From IMG/VR virus record IMGVR_UViG_3300010391_000135, positions 1-28,903 of that record: 28,903 bases of DNA, one strand, 5' to 3'. Position numbers and translations under genes: made by a program. The first letter of the stretch is position 1. Each line of letters opens with the position of its first letter. Positions 10,559 to 23,737 of the stretch are shown here, piece by piece. The notes under the pieces are model-generated. The model had not been told where the DNA came from. It worked only from the letters and a program-made list of their open reading frames with translations, and did not search any database. The DNA comes from a virus.

Positions 10559-11581
10559 TTACGACACCGCGCTGGCGTCGAAGTCGGAGATGACGCCGTG
10601 GCAGCGCATCTCGTCGAAGCACAACTCCCCCGACCAGTCGATGTACCCGACCCGGATACGCTGGTCGAGCCCCTTCTGGAACGGGTCGAAGCTCATGTCT
10701 CTGAGCTCGTGGACGAACAGGTGGATGGCCGGCTCGTGCAGCAGGTAGATCTGCTCGTGCTTGCCGGAGGTCCGCGGTGCCCGCGCGTCGCCCACCCACG
10801 GCGCGCTCTTGTACATCACGTTGTCGAACCCCGCCTTCGCGAGATCCGAGTTCTGCTGGGGCCGCGGGTAGCGCTCGTTCTTCACGAGCTGGTTGTGGTA
10901 GCTCTGCATCGAGCCGTAGTTCGAGAGGATCATGGTCGGGGTCTTTTCGGCCGCGATCATGATCTTCGTCCACATGATCCCGATGGGCTTGAACTGCGCC
11001 GCCATGTCGGTGTCGGTGTAGGCGGTGTCGTCGCCCTGGTGGTTCCACCAGGTATTCGCCGACGAGGCGCCGCGCGCGATACCGCCGAAGGTCTGCGCCG
11101 GCATGGTGCCCGGTGCGGCTCCGGTGTAGGGCGTGAGCGCGTACTGGACGCCGGTGATGGCCTTGGGGTCGGACGCCGCGTTGAAGAGCGCCGTGCCGAC
11201 GCCGTCCACCGCCGTCCGCTCCGCGGTCGTCATCTTGGTGTCGACCAGCCTTGCGATCGCGGTGTCGCCGCGCACCGAATCCTCCTCGTCGCGGTCCACC
11301 ACGACGGGGACGGAGTAGTTCTTGCGGTAGTACACCGCCGCGTTGATGGTGTTGCGGATGCGGATGTCCATCTTGTCCGCACCGCTCCACCACTGGCCGC
11401 CGCCGCCCTCGGGCGCGAAGCCCAGCGAGACGACGATGGCTCGACCACCTGCGTAGTGCTTGACTCTCGGCTTGAGTCGGTAGAACACCGGGTTCTTGAG
11501 GAAGTAGTTATCCTTCACCCGGGGCATGTAGTAATCCTGAACCAGTGCCGAGACCTGGTCCCAGTTGATCGTGACGGACAA
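10559..11581 (-). CDS. Major capsid protein
   Basis: 340 residues. The best start is TTG 11581, with GGAG 7-8 nt upstream; the first in-frame ATG is 18 codons on and would remove conserved-looking sequence. The N-terminal helix (INWDQVSALVQDYYMPRVKDN), a basic loop region and a C-terminal beta-rich domain suit an HK97-fold shell protein. The order scaffold, capsid, decoration supports this strongly. It is probably the most abundant product of the operon and is preceded by a short 32-bp gap after the scaffold gene. The exact capsid family was not identified. Confidence 0.85.
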   Translation of the reverse strand: MSVTINWDQVSALVQDYYMPRVKDNYFLKNPVFYRLKPRVKHYAGGRAIVVSLGFAPEGGGGQWWSGADKMDIRIRNTINAAVYYRKNYSVPVVVDRDEEDSVRGDTAIARLVDTKMTTAERTAVDGVGTALFNAASDPKAITGVQYALTPYTGAAPGTMPAQTFGGIARGASSANTWWNHQGDDTAYTDTDMAAQFKPIGIMWTKIMIAAEKTPTMILSNYGSMQSYHNQLVKNERYPRPQQNSDLAKAGFDNVMYKSAPWVGDARAPRTSGKHEQIYLLHEPAIHLFVHELRDMSFDPFQKGLDQRIRVGYIDWSGELCFDEMRCHGVISDFDASAVS

Positions 11582-12989: not shown

Positions 12990-13234
12990 CACCGTCCTCC
13001 AGCCTGGCGCACGCGCCGAGCGATCTTGCGCGCGTTCTTCACGCCATGCACCGCGATGGTGGCCGTGGGCTTGTTGCCGTCGTACTCGTCGAATCCGACG
13101 TTGGAGAGCGTGCCAGAGACGTGCGCGCTCACCGCGCCGCCCGGCTTCGTGCCGTGGAAGGGGAGTGCGTGTTTCCCCGTCAGGCGCACCGTGGACGGCG
13201 GAGACTTCGGCATCGGGACTGCGCCGTGCTTCAT
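12989..13234 (-). CDS. Small basic protein, unknown
   Basis: 81 residues from ATG 13234, overlapping the portal stop as ATGA. It is basic (theoretical charge clearly positive), with a beta-like centre (VSAHVSGTLSNVGFDEYDGN, ATIAVHGV) and an Arg/Lys-rich C-terminal helix. It could be a minor head protein. There is no recognised domain. Confidence 0.7.
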   Translation of the reverse strand: MKHGAVPMPKSPPSTVRLTGKHALPFHGTKPGGAVSAHVSGTLSNVGFDEYDGNKPTATIAVHGVKNARKIARRVRQAGGR

Positions 13235-15114
13235 TTCTGGCCCCCCTCGCCCATCGTCGTACTCACCTTGGAGGGCGCTGCGGCCTGAGCCGCCATGAGT
13301 GCGCCCACTTGCCGCCAGTTAGGATAGCGCGTGCGCTTCAGGAGTTCAATAGGAGGAATCGCGCCGGCCTGGAAGTAGGCGAGCCACCTCGCGTCGTCCT
13401 CCTGACGGCTCGACCTGAGCCCGCTGCCCTGGGCGAAGGCGAAGTCCCACTCCTCGAGAAACGCCCGCGGGTCGAAGTCCACCCAGTCGCCGTTGCGGGC
13501 CTGGAATCCGATCGGTCCGGTGTACTTGCGGGCCAGCACGCCCATGCACTTCTTGATGACCTCGGCCGACTCGCGCAGCGCCGCCGGCTCCTTGCCGCGG
13601 ATGCGCTTGGACGACTGCTGGATCAGTGCGCGGAACGCGGACGCCGCCTCGATGCCGGTCGGGCGCTGGCCGAGCTGGGCGTCGTTCATGCCGCCCACCA
13701 TCTGAGCGTCCTCCTTGCCGACCGCGATGAGCTCGAACTGCTGCTGCGAGGGTCCGTGGAACTCCATCCACTCGGCGTCGCTCCCGTGCTGAAGCTCGAG
13801 CACCTCGCCCGCGTCGATGCTGTCCTTGTCGAACTGGCGGTTGATGGGGCCCTTGGCCTTCAGGACCGGCGTGGACTCATACTCGAGGGAGCGGTTGAGC
13901 TGGTTCTTGCGGATATTGTAGTGGCGGTTCGGTGAGGCGATCTGGTCGATCTCGCCGAACTGGGCGTACATGCGTCCGGGATGTCGGTGGTCGCGGCCGA
14001 CCACGATCGGCAGGCCCCCGTAGCACGGGTCGACGGGCTGGACGCAACCGCCGAGGCCGGCCTTTTCGGGCTTCAGGAACTTGCCGTTCGAGAGCATCCG
14101 AATGACCGACCAGCCGGACTCGGAGCAGGCCCCGCCCCAGTCGGGGTCGTCGGTCTCGAAGTAGGCGCCCGGGACCTGAATCTTCTGCGTCGGGTCGCTC
14201 GGGTGTGGGATCTCGCGGTAGCCCTCGTAGACCGTGCGCCGGGTGCGGTAGTCGCGGATGTAAAGTTGGAGCAGGAACACCGTGCTGCCGGCCTCCATCC
14301 AGGCTCCGCCCGGACTGGCGATCGAGAACTCGGTGCTGCCGGGGCCGGCCGCCACCGGGTACACGCTGACGCTCGGTACCACGTAGCCCTCGCCGCGCCC
14401 GCCCTGGCGGTCGGGGTAGTTCTCGATGTAGGGGCGCACGTAGACGTCGTAGCTCGGGGAAACGTAGCCGTCGGGCTTGATGTCGTCCGCCATCCACGGG
14501 TACTTGGCCTTGAGCATCCGCACGTTGACGGGTGTGGCGAGGAAGAAGTGGTCGAGCGTCTTGATGTCGCTAGCAGACGGGTCGAAGTAGATGTCGAAGG
14601 GGTCCCACTCGGTCACGGACGGCATCCCGCTGGCCTCGTCCACCACGATGAGCCACACGCACCAGCCGAACTTGAGCTTGTCGCGGGTGGTGTCCTCGTG
14701 GGCCTCGTCGAATCCGACCCGGTCGCACACCCAGTCCACCGCCTCAGCCATGTTGTCCGCTTTGTCGGCGAGTTCGGGGCGGCGCGCGACCGGCTCGGGG
14801 CGCGGTCGATTCTCCACCAGCTCGGGCCACACCGACTCGACGGCGAGGAAAGCGAGGTTGGTGATTTCGTTCTCGCGGTTGAGCTGTGGGGTGTTGTAGT
14901 GAAAACCCGCCCACAGGAGTTCCAGCACCTTGAGCCGGTTCTGCTCCGGGCGCTTGGCGTAGAGCGCCTTCTCCCACAGGTCCTTCACCCACCCCGCGAG
15001 TTTGGCTTCGTCCTCGCAGCCCTCGAAGGGCGGGTCGTCCTGCTTGAACACGCCCTGCGCGTAGAAGGTGCCGCCGTCGTCGTGCGGCGCGGAGAACAGC
15101 GTCGGCGCCCTCAT
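13231..15114 (-). CDS. Portal protein
   Basis: 627 residues from ATG 15114, overlapping the upstream stop as ATGA. It is preceded by the large terminase two genes upstream and followed by the scaffold, the standard head-gene order. The length and sequence match podovirus portals: an N-terminal helical wing, a W-D-P-x-x-I-Y-F-D-P motif (about 170-179) typical of this family, and a Q/E-rich helical crown near the C-terminus (about 490-530). It would form the dodecameric channel at one capsid vertex through which DNA is packaged and ejected and to which the adaptor binds. Confidence 0.85.
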   Translation of the reverse strand: MRAPTLFSAPHDDGGTFYAQGVFKQDDPPFEGCEDEAKLAGWVKDLWEKALYAKRPEQNRLKVLELLWAGFHYNTPQLNRENEITNLAFLAVESVWPELVENRPRPEPVARRPELADKADNMAEAVDWVCDRVGFDEAHEDTTRDKLKFGWCVWLIVVDEASGMPSVTEWDPFDIYFDPSASDIKTLDHFFLATPVNVRMLKAKYPWMADDIKPDGYVSPSYDVYVRPYIENYPDRQGGRGEGYVVPSVSVYPVAAGPGSTEFSIASPGGAWMEAGSTVFLLQLYIRDYRTRRTVYEGYREIPHPSDPTQKIQVPGAYFETDDPDWGGACSESGWSVIRMLSNGKFLKPEKAGLGGCVQPVDPCYGGLPIVVGRDHRHPGRMYAQFGEIDQIASPNRHYNIRKNQLNRSLEYESTPVLKAKGPINRQFDKDSIDAGEVLELQHGSDAEWMEFHGPSQQQFELIAVGKEDAQMVGGMNDAQLGQRPTGIEAASAFRALIQQSSKRIRGKEPAALRESAEVIKKCMGVLARKYTGPIGFQARNGDWVDFDPRAFLEEWDFAFAQGSGLRSSRQEDDARWLAYFQAGAIPPIELLKRTRYPNWRQVGALMAAQAAAPSKVSTTMGEGGQK

Positions 15115-15434: not shown

Positions 15435-15643
15435 CCGATGAAGATTCCCTTCAGTGATCGGCGGTAGAGATTCCTGATTTTGCGAACCGTGGCGCCGCGC
15501 GCGCACGACTCGTGCATGTAGAGGTCGAAGGCATCGCCGTGACCGGCGTGCCACGCTTCCGTCGCCGGCAGCGCCTTACCACAGATGAAGCACTTCACCG
15601 TCCTGGTGACGAGCGAGACGAGGTCGTGCGGGACTTCGTTCAC
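15431..15643 (-). CDS. Small zinc-finger protein
   Basis: 70 residues from GTG 15643, overlapping the terminase stop as GTGA, with a GGAGGG site in the terminase 3' end. It has Cys18-x2-Cys21, His35, and His44-x2-Cys47, a plausible zinc-binding site, followed by a basic C-terminal helix (RKIRNLYRRSLKG). It may bind DNA or protein during packaging. No exact family was recognised. Confidence 0.7.
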   Translation of the reverse strand: MNEVPHDLVSLVTRTVKCFICGKALPATEAWHAGHGDAFDLYMHESCARGATVRKIRNLYRRSLKGIFIG

Positions 15644-17466
15644 ACCAGCCCTCCGAGTCCGCGGCGCGCGCGTGAACTGGACCGCTTATACGCCCATTCG
15701 TCGATTTCTTCAAGCTCCGCCGCTGTGACGTTCAACCGATCCACCACGCCGGAGTGGATGTCGCCGCCCGCCGCGATCTGAGATTTGGCGTGCGACAGCA
15801 CCTCGAAGCGCTCGTGGAGCGTGAGCGGACGGATCGGCTCCTCGGGGTACGCCTTGCGGGCCTCGAGCGCCAGGCAGTAGGCCAGCAGCAGGTCGTCCTT
15901 GAAGCGCGGGTCGTCGTTGCGGTAGCTGCGCGGCTCGGCGCGCTCCTCGCCGCGGTCGTTCTTGCGGGTGAAGGCCATGCCTTCCATCTGCGACAGCAGC
16001 CAGGGGTCGCGGATCTCGCACCGGAACTCGCCCGTGCCGATGCCGCGGACCACGGTGCGGGCGTTGTCGAACAGGTAGATCCGGTTCTTGGGCGTGGTGA
16101 GGAATCCGAGTTTGTCGGTGACGGCGCGCGCGACCGACTCCTTAGAGGTCTGGCGGAAGTAGAGGTTGGGGTAGCCCAGGTCCTCGATCGTGATGCCGAA
16201 GGCGATGCCGTGGTTGTTGGCCTCCCACGCGACCTTGCCCTGGTTGTAGAGCAGCCCCAGCAGGCGGGCGACGCGCGCGAGTTCCTCGGGCGGCATCTTG
16301 CCGATCCAGGTCCAGACCGTGTTGAGCGTCAGGTTGTCGATCCCGCAGCCGGGCGAGTAGTCGCTGCCGGTGTCGCCGGCCGACGGGTCCCAGCCCGAAG
16401 AATAGACCCGCCTCCCGACCGGGTACTCGTAGATGCGGAGTCGGCCGCGGGCACCGAACACCAGCTTCGGCGCCTTGGCCGCCGCGTCCCACTCGATTTC
16501 GCACGGGGGATAGGTGGTATCGAACGCAGCCATGAACGCCTCGCCCGCACCGAACTTCTGCTCGAGTTCGCCGCGGACTATCTGGAGAGCGGAGGGCTCG
16601 AACACCGGCCGCCCCGAGACCATGAAGCAGGAGCGGTCGTCGAAGGGGTATTCCTGGCGGAACTTGTCCATGTCGCCGTAGCAGTTATTGGCGATGGTGT
16701 AGCGCATCCATTCGACCTGCTGTAGGTCGAGCCCGTGGGCCGCGACCATCGCCAGTTCCTCGGCCGTGAGGTCGTCTGGGGTGAGCCGGGTCCGCATCCG
16801 ACAGGTGGGGTCGTCGAACCATGCGATGAACACCGGCTGGAAGTCGTTCTTGCCGACCTTCGCGTTCACCCACAGGTCGTGGAACAGGTTGCCGATCCCG
16901 TTCGGGGTGGACTCGATCACCACCAGCGAGTCGGTCTGCGAGGGCACGGTGTTGAGCACCGAGGTCAGGGTCTCCTCCGGGGTCTTGTAGAACGCCATCT
17001 CCGAGAGGTGGACGTACTGGGCGGTGTAGCCGCGGGCCTCGCCCTCGACCTCCACCTGCATCCGCGAGTCGTTGGTGTCGAAGTGGATCTCGCGCCGGTT
17101 CTGGGCGCGCTTTTTCCAGCGGATCGCTTTCGGCAGGTGGGCGTAGAAGCGGTGGCTCATGCGGAACAGCGACCGCGCGGAGTCGTCCTTGTGGGCGAGC
17201 ACCAGTCCAGAACGATTCGGATTCAGGTGGCAGCGGTGGAAGATGCGTCCCTGGGCGTAGGTCGAGACCCCCACCTGGCGGCTCTTCAGCACCACGATGC
17301 GCGGCGGGCGGCCGTCGTGCACCGCGCGCGCGATGGCGGCCTCTATCTTCATCTGTGGCCCGTTCAGCAGGAACGGGATGACGTTGCCCTTCTTGGGCGC
17401 GATGCGGAGGCACTCGCGGGCGTAGAGTGGAAAGTCGCGGCGCAGCTCGCCGAGGGTGAGGCTCAT
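15640..17466 (-). CDS. terL: Terminase large subunit (packaging ATPase/nuclease)
   Basis: 608 residues from ATG 17466, overlapping the upstream stop as ATGA. The ATPase half has the Walker A-type LKSRQVGVST (60-69), a Walker B-like VHLSEMAF with Glu156, and the coupling-type ESTPNG (185-190). The nuclease half has an RNase H-like triad: GWDPSAGDTGSDYS with Asp360, WEANNHG with Glu415, and KDDLLLAY with Asp524/525. It docks on the portal, cuts concatemeric DNA and pumps it into the head. The family is clear; the packaging mode (headful or site-specific ends) cannot be told from the motifs. Confidence 0.95.
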   Translation of the reverse strand: MSLTLGELRRDFPLYARECLRIAPKKGNVIPFLLNGPQMKIEAAIARAVHDGRPPRIVVLKSRQVGVSTYAQGRIFHRCHLNPNRSGLVLAHKDDSARSLFRMSHRFYAHLPKAIRWKKRAQNRREIHFDTNDSRMQVEVEGEARGYTAQYVHLSEMAFYKTPEETLTSVLNTVPSQTDSLVVIESTPNGIGNLFHDLWVNAKVGKNDFQPVFIAWFDDPTCRMRTRLTPDDLTAEELAMVAAHGLDLQQVEWMRYTIANNCYGDMDKFRQEYPFDDRSCFMVSGRPVFEPSALQIVRGELEQKFGAGEAFMAAFDTTYPPCEIEWDAAAKAPKLVFGARGRLRIYEYPVGRRVYSSGWDPSAGDTGSDYSPGCGIDNLTLNTVWTWIGKMPPEELARVARLLGLLYNQGKVAWEANNHGIAFGITIEDLGYPNLYFRQTSKESVARAVTDKLGFLTTPKNRIYLFDNARTVVRGIGTGEFRCEIRDPWLLSQMEGMAFTRKNDRGEERAEPRSYRNDDPRFKDDLLLAYCLALEARKAYPEEPIRPLTLHERFEVLSHAKSQIAAGGDIHSGVVDRLNVTAAELEEIDEWAYKRSSSRARRGLGGLV

Positions 17467-21468: not shown

Positions 21469-21705
21469 ATGCCCGACTACCACGACGAGATCGAGCAGTC
21501 GTTCCGCTGGGCGCACCGCAACTACCACGCGCCGCAGCCTGACCGGCTCCCGCGCTACGAGGCGCTGCGCGACGGGGCGAGGGCCTTGGCGCACGGGATC
21601 GACGCCGCCTGCCCGCTCTCTCGCGAGAAGCTGATCGCCCTGGACCGGCTGGCGGAGTGCATCATGTGGGCGAATCGGGCGATCAGCGTGAACGAGGCGG
21701 AGTAG
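21469..21705 (+). CDS. Acb2-like cyclic-nucleotide sponge (anti-CBASS)
   Basis: 78 residues from ATG 21469, with GGGAGG 6 nt upstream. It reads like the small phage Acb2 family: a Y-H-x-P segment (NYHAPQPD, 18-25), a charged helix (RYEALRDGARALAHGID, 29-45), CPLSREK (48-54) and a C-terminal LAECIMWANRAIS (61-73) matching the CP-x-SREK and MWAN-x-I motifs I recall for this family. Acb2 proteins bind cyclic di- and trinucleotides made by CBASS cyclases, preventing effector activation and cell suicide. The gene lies in a run of accessory genes, as anti-defence genes do. The match is from memory of the family, not from alignment. Confidence 0.8.
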   Translation: MPDYHDEIEQSFRWAHRNYHAPQPDRLPRYEALRDGARALAHGIDAACPLSREKLIALDRLAECIMWANRAISVNEAE

Positions 21706-21927
21706 TTGGACCCGATCCAGAAGTTCGTCGTGGCGATGCGGGCCTACGAGTTCGTGTTCGGGATCGGGCTGGTCATCGGCGTCGTGGTCGGATGGCTCGC
21801 GGGGCGACTCGGAACGGGGAAGCGGAATGAGGCGGAGATCAAGCTGCCGGGTGCCGGGCCGGATCACGGCACGGCGCTCGGGGCTCCGCCCGATGTCGTG
21901 CCGGAGAATCCGACGCCCGACCCGTAG
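21706..21927 (+). CDS. Small one-helix membrane protein
   Basis: 73 residues from TTG 21706, the first base after the Acb2-like stop; GGCGGAG just upstream could serve as ribosome site. It has one clear transmembrane segment (about 15-36) rich in Gly/Val/Ile, then a charged, Pro-rich tail. It could be a holin-like or membrane-associated accessory, or act with its upstream neighbour. No family was recognised. Confidence 0.6.
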   Translation: MDPIQKFVVAMRAYEFVFGIGLVIGVVVGWLAGRLGTGKRNEAEIKLPGAGPDHGTALGAPPDVVPENPTPDP

Positions 21928-21932
21928 GATTT

Positions 21933-22007
21933 CGCCCCGTAGAGCAGCGGCAGCTCGCGTGGCTCATAACCACGAGGTCGCGGGTTCGAGTCCCGCCGGG
22001 GCAACCA
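21933..22007 (+). tRNA. tRNA-fMet-like (anticodon CAU), CCA encoded
   Basis: Complete cloverleaf: acceptor CGCCCCG/CGGGGCA, D-stem GAGC/GCTC, anticodon stem CGTGG/CCACG with loop CTCATAA, T-stem GCGGG/CCCGC with TTCGAGT, discriminator A and encoded CCA. The first acceptor pair is a C-A mismatch and the D-stem holds the A-U pair at 11-24, both hallmarks of bacterial initiator tRNA. The anticodon stem base has GG/CC plus one U-A, not the full GGG/CCC. It follows the small membrane gene by 5 bp and is in the same orientation. Confidence 0.9.
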
Positions 22008-22106
22008 ACGTGGCGTCCTCGACCGCGAGCAGAAACGTCAGCGCCGGTCTGTGCGGCGCATCGAGGTGAAGTCAGGCAGCGGAGCGGAGCAGCGCGGCGC
22101 CCCGGT
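22008..22106. other. Short convergent intergenic gap
   Basis: About 100 bp between the tRNA (plus) and the methyltransferase stop (minus). I see no gene here; its right edge holds the stem-loop described next. Confidence 0.6.
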
Positions 22107-22128
22107 CTACGACTGGGGCGTTGGCGTT
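22098..22128 (+). terminator. Possible terminator of the plus-strand cassette
   Basis: Stem CGCCCCGGT/ACTGGGGCG (22098-22120) with a 5-nt loop and one G-U pair on the plus-strand RNA, followed by TTGGCGTTT. The tail is only modestly U-rich. It overlaps the 3' end of the convergent methyltransferase gene and could stop both operons. Confidence 0.45.
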
Positions 22129-23546
22129 TGTAGGAGCGGCGCGTCGGCGCGGATGCGCTCGCGGGCCTCGACCTCGAGGATCCGCCGCCCGAGCCATTCG
22201 ACCACCGGCACCGCGACCGCGTTGCCGAGCATCTGGTAGCGCCGCGAGTCGCTGAGCTTCCAGTTCGCGTGGCCGAGCGTCCAGCCATCTGGGAAGCCTT
22301 GCAGGCGCTCACACTCGGTTGGCGTGAGGCGGCGGACGCCGACGCTCCCGGCAACGCTCATCCCTCCGGCGTGAAGCGTGGGCGACTCGCCGTCCAGGAA
22401 CCTCGTTCGATTGACTCCACTGGTCACGTTTCGAGGATCGAATCCGCCTGCGATAACCTCAGTGCTGGAGTTGGAACCCGGCCTCGGATGCGATCGCAAC
22501 GTCCCCGCCACCAGCGGAGTATTATCCGACGAGTCGCCCGCGCCCTTGTCGCGCCCGCCCACGCGCAGCGTCGGTGCCACGATCAGGTGCCCGTCCTTCG
22601 TGTCGGAGTCCGGGCCCTTCGCATCGCGCTCCTGAAGCGCCCACGCGACATCGGGCACGACGTACAGATTCCCGTTTCCTCGCTCGGTTGAAGATCCCGC
22701 TTGCAGCGGAGGCATCGGACCGATCGGCAGCGTCGAGTTCCAACCGTTGCCGGAGTTCGGACCCGTGCCGCGCGGCGAGCCGTTCAGCGTGTACGCGAGA
22801 TTGTCCGCACCATCGCCGCGCGCTCTGCTGTGCCCGTGGTGCCCGGCGCTCGCCGTCACGGGGCTGGCGATGAGTCCTCCGCCGCAGTCGGCATAGGTGC
22901 CAAGGCCGCCACCGCCTCTAGCGCGGTTTGCAAGCGATGGTCCAAGACGCGCCCTCGCCGCGCCGCGCGCCGCAGGATGCCGACGCACGCTCTCGGGCTC
23001 AAAAAGAACCTGAGCGGTGCGCCCGTCTCCAAGATGTCCGACAATGAACACGCGACGGCGCCGCTGTGGGACTCCGAAGTGCTGAGCGTCCAGAATCCGC
23101 CACGCGACGCCATACCCGAGTTCGACCAGCCCGCGAACGATGACGGCAAAATCGCGTCCTCCGTTGCTGGATAGAAGGCCGGGCACGTTCTCGACGACGC
23201 ACCAGCGCGGAGCAAGCTCTCCAAGAATGCGATGGAACTCCCACCAGAGGCCGGATCGCTTTCCAGCCAGGCCCGCGCGGCGTCCGGCCACGCTGAGATC
23301 CTGGCAGGGGAAGCCGCCGCAGATGAGGTCAACGTGAGCGAGGTTTGATCGTCGCGCGTATCGGACATCTTTCAGGACCCTCCGGTGGAACGTCTGTCGC
23401 AGGAACTTCCGGCACGCCCCGTCGCGCTCGACCTGCCACGAGCAGCGCATCCCGGCGCGCTCGAAGCCGAGCTCGAAGCCGCCGATGCCGGAGAACAGCG
23501 AGCCGAATCGTAGCGCGTCCCCCTCAATGATCTCGGCGACCCTCAC
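22107..23546 (-). CDS. DNA cytosine-5 methyltransferase
   Basis: 479 residues from GTG 23546, overlapping the previous stop as GTGA. All key motifs are present in order: I FGSLFSGIGGFELGF (14-28), IV GGFPCQ with catalytic Cys81, VI ENVPG (119-123), VIII QRRRRVFIVG (161-170), IX RRLTPTECERLQGFPDGW (405-422) and X GNAVAVPVVEWL (441-452). The target-recognition region between VIII and IX is long (about 230 residues) and Gly/Ser/Asn-rich. It transfers a methyl group from S-adenosylmethionine to C5 of cytosine in an unknown site. No restriction enzyme gene is adjacent, so it is likely an orphan used to protect phage DNA or alter expression. Confidence 0.95.
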   Translation of the reverse strand: MRVAEIIEGDALRFGSLFSGIGGFELGFERAGMRCSWQVERDGACRKFLRQTFHRRVLKDVRYARRSNLAHVDLICGGFPCQDLSVAGRRAGLAGKRSGLWWEFHRILGELAPRWCVVENVPGLLSSNGGRDFAVIVRGLVELGYGVAWRILDAQHFGVPQRRRRVFIVGHLGDGRTAQVLFEPESVRRHPAARGAARARLGPSLANRARGGGGLGTYADCGGGLIASPVTASAGHHGHSRARGDGADNLAYTLNGSPRGTGPNSGNGWNSTLPIGPMPPLQAGSSTERGNGNLYVVPDVAWALQERDAKGPDSDTKDGHLIVAPTLRVGGRDKGAGDSSDNTPLVAGTLRSHPRPGSNSSTEVIAGGFDPRNVTSGVNRTRFLDGESPTLHAGGMSVAGSVGVRRLTPTECERLQGFPDGWTLGHANWKLSDSRRYQMLGNAVAVPVVEWLGRRILEVEARERIRADAPLLQTPTPQS

Positions 23547-23737
23547 TTCGCCTCCGGCGCGAACGCGGCGACGAAGTGCGTCTTGAGGTGCGCGACCGCC
23601 GCGGCGTACACGGTGCGCCCGTCGCCGGTGACGAGGATCGTGTTCTTCGGCACCTCCGGCCGCGGGCCGCACCAGATCGCGTACTGGCCGGGCTGCTCGG
23701 TCTGCTCGATGCCTAGGATCAGGCGCTTCGCGCTCAC
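23543..23737 (-). CDS. Small protein upstream of methyltransferase
   Basis: 64 residues from GTG 23737, overlapping the previous stop as GTGA and the methyltransferase start as GTGA. A beta-alpha-like sequence (RLILGIEQTEQPGQYAIWCG, NTILVTGDGRTVYAAAVAHLKTHF) without known motif. The open frame extends upstream only as antisense-looking sequence. Possibly a helper of the methyltransferase, on position alone. Confidence 0.65.
   Translation of the reverse strand: MSAKRLILGIEQTEQPGQYAIWCGPRPEVPKNTILVTGDGRTVYAAAVAHLKTHFVAAFAPEAK

Follow-up and report, generated by a model that had tools for sequence, protein, structure and literature searches.

A putative initiator tRNA gene with a U29–A41 pair in a tailed phage contig

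The window (the whole stretch of DNA analysed here, a linear IMG/VR virus record of 28,903 bases with 68.8% G+C) contains only one tRNA gene, which was identified by ARAGORN as tRNA-Met(CAT) on the + strand at 21933–22007. Judged from its sequence, this is very probably a bacterial-type initiator, of the tRNA-fMet class. It belongs to a class of phage tRNAs that is already known but under-annotated, of which it is an unusual-looking example. The complete explanation that we favor, which includes a benefit to the phage, is likely; it is held less firmly than the identity alone because its last step, namely why the phage profits, is unproven.

The window comes from a tailed phage, as is shown by its genes for a terminase large subunit (15640–17466, − strand; phrog_2, E = 7.4e-20), a P22-like portal protein (13231–15114, − strand; PF16510, 54.5 bits) and a major head protein (10559–11581, − strand; phrog_9953, E = 5.6e-36). 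The tRNA gene lies on the same contig as these three genes, which supports its being phage-encoded. No relatives were confirmed in a search of viral contigs using the terminase and portal. Against cultured phages, the terminase had at most 27% identity among the matches listed, the head protein gave a single match (24%), and the portal gave none.

Structure and isotype of the tRNA

The gene including its CCA matches Rfam family RF00005 with 63.4 bits (gathering score 29), and its cloverleaf pairs fully except for C1×A72. The 5′ strand of the acceptor stem (CGCCCCG, 21933–21939) faces CGGGGCA, giving the C1×A72 mismatch (A72 is at 22003) followed by six good pairs, of which 4–69, 5–68, and 6–67 are all C–G. 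C4–G69 (21936/22000) is unusual for an initiator. Base 9 is A, and the D arm (GAGC-AGCGGCA-GCUC, 21942–21956) contains A11–U24 and G12–C23 and has a short loop of 7 nt. The anticodon arm (CGUGG-CUCAUAA-CCACG, 21958–21974) carries the anticodon CAU at 21965–21967 (ARAGORN anticodon position 33) and has the stem pairs U29 (21960)–A41 (21972), G30–C40, and G31–C39, so that the third G–C pair expected in an initiator, G29–C41, is replaced by U29–A41. A73 and the encoded CCA occupy 22004–22007. The features named in the sequence-only reading, including the C1×A72 mismatch, A11–U24, and CCA, are thus all present; the three C–G acceptor pairs, A9, and the short D loop are additional to it. The unconstrained minimum-energy fold is not a cloverleaf, with a z score of only −1.46; this is common for unmodified tRNAs.

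Many of these features are shared with E. coli tRNA-fMet, namely C1×A72, A73, G2–C71, C3–G70, A11–U24, G30–C40, G31–C39, and the CAU anticodon. The window tRNA differs from it in having U29–A41 for G29–C41, C4–G69 for G4–C69, and a shorter D loop. The minor determinants for the formyltransferase are A73, G2–C71, C3–G70, and G4–C69 (PMC9976931), and the window tRNA has all of these except G4–C69, which is not a defining one.

A11–U24 and an unpaired 1:72 occur together in 44/47 cellular initiators, in none of 54 cellular elongator or Ile2 tRNAs with a CAU anticodon, and in none of 469 non-CAU phage tRNAs having a standard four-pair D stem. Considered singly, A11–U24 is found in 0/54 elongators and in 47/47 cellular initiators, the latter figure being a consequence of the search design, while G30–C40 is found in all 47 initiators. 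Position 1:72 is paired in 54/54 cellular CAU elongators (and unpaired in 0/29 elongator tRNA-Met), and is paired in about 98% of the non-CAU tRNAs from the phage loci that were retrieved, with G–C or C–G there in 480/774 (62%). All 54 cellular CAU elongators have U12–A23, where the window tRNA has G12–C23. The marks of elongator tRNA-Met (a paired 1:72, and a GCUC/GAGC D stem with U12–A23) are therefore lacking in the window tRNA.

Isotype scoring, which had been proposed as a check on the initiator assignment, agreed with it in one form and was undecided in the other. Profile HMMs, trained on tRNAs from two phyla (Pseudomonadota and Actinomycetota), gave 34.8 bits for fMet, 26.0 for Met, and 25.4 for Ile2, a preference for fMet of 8.8 bits over the best elongator; the same difference is negative for 31/31 phage CAU elongators and for 55/55 cellular elongators. 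The initiator assignment is thus backed both by the hallmark pairs and by the profile HMMs. A paired position model gave −10.4 for fMet, −8.7 for Met, and −11.6 for Ile2. This does not settle the isotype, because the C–G pairs at 4–69, 5–68, and 6–67 resemble Ile2, and the tRNA is also atypical at 28–42, 29–41, and base 9. For most phage initiators the isotype can be called more firmly.

The acceptor stem raises the question of whether this tRNA looks like an initiator but functions as Ile2 (or elongator Met): an acceptor stem of Ile2 type would be carried on an initiator-like body, and the host TilS enzyme would modify the anticodon to read AUA. Initiators nearly always have G4–C69, and C4–G69 is found in only 2/249 phage initiator-type tRNAs, among the matches listed. 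C4–G69 occurs in 17/25 Ile2 tRNAs and C5–G68 in 25/25, both being rare in initiators, and C4–G69 is described as a determinant for Ile (PMC9976931). The scores from the paired position model can also be counted in favor of this explanation. We nevertheless regard it as improbable. C4–G69 is the only Ile2 mark present, the paired 1:72, U12–A23, and C29–G41 all being missing, and for this reason an initiator is retained as the best reading. The presence of A11–U24 and the 8.8 bits by which the HMMs prefer fMet also argue against Ile2, as does the rarity of AUA codons, at 1.7 per 1000 in the genes of the phage.

Initiator tRNAs in phages and the 29–41 pair

The sequence-only reading held that phage tRNAs are usually elongators, implying that a phage initiator would be rare. 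This is not what we find, as initiator-type tRNAs are common both in viral contigs and in deposited phage records. The pattern GAGCAG..GCTC..TCATA, and likewise each of two stem-specific patterns, was found in at least 120 stretches in viral contigs, these samples having been selected by their D-arm and CAU pattern and consisting of partial stretches, with some IMG/VR contigs possibly carrying host flanks. An exact match to 45 bases of the window tRNA was not found in viral contigs. BLAST detected a similar tRNA in 234 deposited phage records (130 of them mycobacteriophages), of which 22, together with the phiLM21 locus, were inspected for tRNA type. Initiator-type tRNA genes are found in cultured phages and in at least several hundred IMG/VR contigs, and occur in phages of Sinorhizobium, Variovorax, Pseudomonas, Alishewanella, Micromonospora, Stenotrophomonas, Xanthomonas, Mycobacterium, Gordonia, Caulobacter, Erwinia, and Cellulophaga. 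In tRNAs from phages of Bordetella, Erythrobacter, Rhizobium, and Mesorhizobium, the 1:72 mismatch is kept and the D stem is changed. The CAU tRNAs of PHB04, R6L, RR1-A, and MseS-P1 are initiator-like, having a mismatched 1:72 and G30–C40 without A11–U24, their D stems being GCGC/GCGC or GGGA/UCCC.

Most of the phage initiator-type genes that we inspected are annotated simply as tRNA-Met or not at all, those of QDWS359 and CcrSC being labelled fMet. Published mentions include phiLM21-like prophages with tRNA-fMet (PMC12429752), Erwinia phage pEa_SNUABM_47 (PMC9686651), and a Sinorhizobium prophage (PMC10460002). In their study of a Shigella case, van den Berg et al. considered that phages generally avoid encoding tRNA-fMet (PMC10264068).

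The departure of the anticodon stem from three G–C pairs, which had been pointed out from the sequence, is confirmed as U29–A41, and turns out to be the rule among phage initiators rather than the exception. Among the matches listed there are 88 distinct phage initiator-type tRNAs, unselected on the stem and forming 57 clusters at 85% identity. Within these listed matches, the 29–41 pair is A–U in 48, G–C in 21, U–A in 18, and something else in 1 (28, 14, 14, and 1 respectively when counted per cluster), so that G29–C41 is lost in 67/88. In the same listed set, G30–C40 is kept in 85/88 and 1:72 is weak or mismatched in 86/88; the 2/88 with a strong 1:72 pair compare with 480/774 among other phage tRNAs (p ~ 1e-30). 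Because a strong 1:72 is so scarce and G30–C40 is so well kept, we conclude that the phage initiator class is under initiator-type selection. None of the 88 listed tRNAs has C29–G41, which hints at a constraint. The U29–A41 pair of the window tRNA is, from its sequence, a change of the type common in phage initiators. No published account of the 29–41 pattern in phage initiators was found in the open-licence literature searched.

G29–C41 is a textbook feature of initiators, and is standard in cellular genomes but not universal. In Actinomycetota, the stem reads GGG in all matching genomes except the seed, and G29–C41 is lost in 1/112 genomes. Pseudomonadota have GGG, or AGG (A29–U41) in a group that includes Neorhizobium, with U29–A41 being found in the seed genome only, among the matches listed. 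In Saccharibacteria and Moranbacteria, U29–A41 is the chromosomal form of the initiator. Several other genomes have it in an additional copy next to an ordinary initiator, and in Neorhizobium this additional copy is identical to the tRNA of an IMG/VR virus contig. The textbook rule understates how widespread cellular initiators without G29–C41 are.

The body of the Saccharibacteria chromosomal initiator (positions 8–64) matches that of the window tRNA at up to 55/57 positions, among them those of the short D loop and U29–A41, which argues that U29–A41 is compatible with initiation. It differs in its acceptor stem (CGCGGGG/CCCCGCA, with G4–C69). We considered Saccharibacteria as the host of the phage on the basis of this similarity and judged it unlikely, since the G+C content of their loci is approximately 36–55% as compared to 69% in the window.

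The nearest match in the phage collection is the tRNA of the Sinorhizobium phage phiLM21 (86% over 69 nt), which has A11–U24, an unpaired 1:72 (G·A in this case), U29–A41, and an anticodon arm identical to that in the window; the likeness extends to the phiLM21-like prophages (PMC12429752). The phiLM21 tRNA has a different acceptor stem (GUCGGAG/CUCCGCA, with G4–C69) and a 9-nt D loop, and belongs to an unrelated genome. The tRNAs of mycobacteriophage Erdmann and its relatives, of the Caulobacter phage CcrSC and the Stenotrophomonas phage QDWS359 (both annotated tRNA-fMet), and of pEa_SNUABM_47 resemble the window tRNA in A11–U24, a weak or mismatched 1:72, and G30–C40. They differ from it in the identity of the 1:72 and 29–41 pairs and in having G4–C69 in every case, and many of them lie within tRNA arrays, unlike the single tRNA of the window.

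On the ribosome, A1339 of 16S rRNA makes a strong type I contact with G30–C40, while G1338 contacts the 29–41 pair via the ribose of residue 41 (PMC11497404). This offers a structural reason why a change at 29–41 could be tolerated. It could be proposed that phage initiators form a distinct and widespread class, retaining the identity pairs 1:72, 2–71, 3–70, and 30–40, in which 29–41 is selectively A–U or U–A as a means of evading a host defence or control that recognizes the host initiator, located in runs of anti-defence genes, with the window gene as one case. This proposal, taken as a whole, strikes us as improbable.

Gene neighbourhood and origin

From the arrangement of the predicted genes, the tRNA is the last element of a + strand run of small genes. 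It is preceded by an ORF of 73 aa with a TTG start and a hydrophobic segment (21706–21927, + strand), whose stop codon ends 5 nt 5′ of the tRNA. Beyond this, two genes away from the tRNA and 228 nt upstream of it, is a gene for a 78-aa protein with an Acb2/Tad1 hairpin domain (21469–21705, + strand; PF24729, 55.2 bits, cut-off 27), a domain of the anti-CBASS/anti-Thoeris family of nucleotide sponges. Downstream there is a convergent gene for a C5-cytosine DNA methyltransferase (22107–23672, − strand; PF00145, 228.8 bits; phrog_116). In this 521-aa protein, a long stretch separates the N-terminal catalytic part (approximately residues 52–218) from the C-terminal part (approximately 435–508), and pieces of it are matched (48% coverage, 61% identity) by a single phage record (Virus Rctr41k), which derives from a DAMO/AAA enrichment culture. 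A strong G+C hairpin, with no run of T, is found between the tRNA and the methyltransferase gene (22097–22122). A scan for promoters and terminators gave nothing at the tRNA gene.

It is common for phages to have tRNA genes at their sites of integration, and the tRNA might be a passenger, that is, a host initiator gene or attachment-site copy that was acquired by chance, is decaying, and has no function in infection. The fact that it is alone and its isotype score, which is below that of most phage initiators, would fit such an origin. The gene is however complete with its CCA, its cloverleaf is fully paired save for C1×A72, the acceptor and T stems are compensated, and the initiator pairs are conserved throughout the class. 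There is also no sign of a tRNA-derived attachment site (attL/attR): the tRNA is about 7 kb from the end of the contig, no flanking repeats were found within 21700–22200, and no integrase was found among the ORFs scanned, the contig being a fragment. A second copy of the tRNA was not found on the contig (the record being the window itself), and with no flanking repeats and no integrase found either, we rejected a host copy or prophage edge. Altogether a passenger seems highly improbable.

Proposed function

For the initiator that we favor, a route to function can be proposed. The tRNA would be transcribed as the final element of the run of small genes, starting 5 nt past the preceding stop codon, and would be released by the tRNA-processing enzymes of the host. 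It could then be charged by the host MetRS via its CAU anticodon and A73, and formylated by the host formyltransferase via C1×A72, A73, G2–C71, and C3–G70, without the help of G4–C69. It would be accepted by IF2 and bound in the P site of the 30S subunit, with G30–C40 making the main A-minor contact and U29–A41 standing in for a pair that is often changed in cellular and phage initiators.

Two benefits had been suggested from the sequence. The first was that a private initiator supports the many GTG and TTG starts in the window. When starts were filtered crudely for a Shine-Dalgarno sequence, the best were 13 ATG, 12 GTG, and no TTG, which looks ordinary for a phage of high G+C content; unusual starts are not in excess. 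The anticodon loop, CUCAUAA, is the standard one. Given this ordinary start usage and standard loop, the start-codon rationale is unsupported.

The second suggestion, replacement of host initiator tRNA that has been depleted, is plausible from the sequence context, although the loop carries no mutation such as van den Berg et al. (PMC10264068) proposed. The likeliest benefit would be that the phage has initiator of its own to draw on when the host pool runs short or has been depleted by defences that target tRNA. The host toxins VapC and AtaT target initiator tRNA. We consider the private supply to be the most reasonable idea because VapC cleaves tRNA-fMet, and because a gene of the Acb2/Tad1 type adjoins the tRNA.

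A stronger version would be that this is a true initiator selected as a counter-defence, with an altered anticodon stem that resists the nucleases or toxins attacking the host initiator, such as VapC; it would also cover the same stem change in most other phage initiators. VapCs from several bacteria do cut tRNA-fMet at the anticodon stem-loop (PMC8522696), and the loss of G29–C41 from most of the listed phage initiators, as against the single actinobacterial case, is in keeping with this. On the other hand, the loop where cleavage occurs is the normal one, and both A29–U41 and U29–A41 are found in cellular initiators too. We also know of no nuclease that reads the 29–41 pair. The position of the Acb2/Tad1 gene favors a counter-defence, and such genes are also found approximately 25–310 nt from an initiator-type tRNA in three further contigs of phages (L065, 803–1015; L402, 1696–1899, where the domain is about 310 nt before the tRNA; and L415, 7372–7572). 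However, tRNAs are frequently neighbours of small early genes, and when whole records were compared, 3/50 had an Acb2/Tad1 match over the cut-off as compared to 0/50 controls, which is not significant. The adjacency is therefore a lead, and selection as a counter-defence is possible, but on balance unlikely.

The initiator tRNA is the entry point for all bacterial translation, and the public label "tRNA-Met" hides initiator genes in phages. The part most worth following is the class-wide loss of G29–C41. That a weak 1:72 and G30–C40 are kept while G29–C41 is lost allows one to predict, in a way open to testing, what an initiator requires and which of its parts are possibly attacked. If many phages do carry a working private initiator, then translation initiation would be a contested step in infection.
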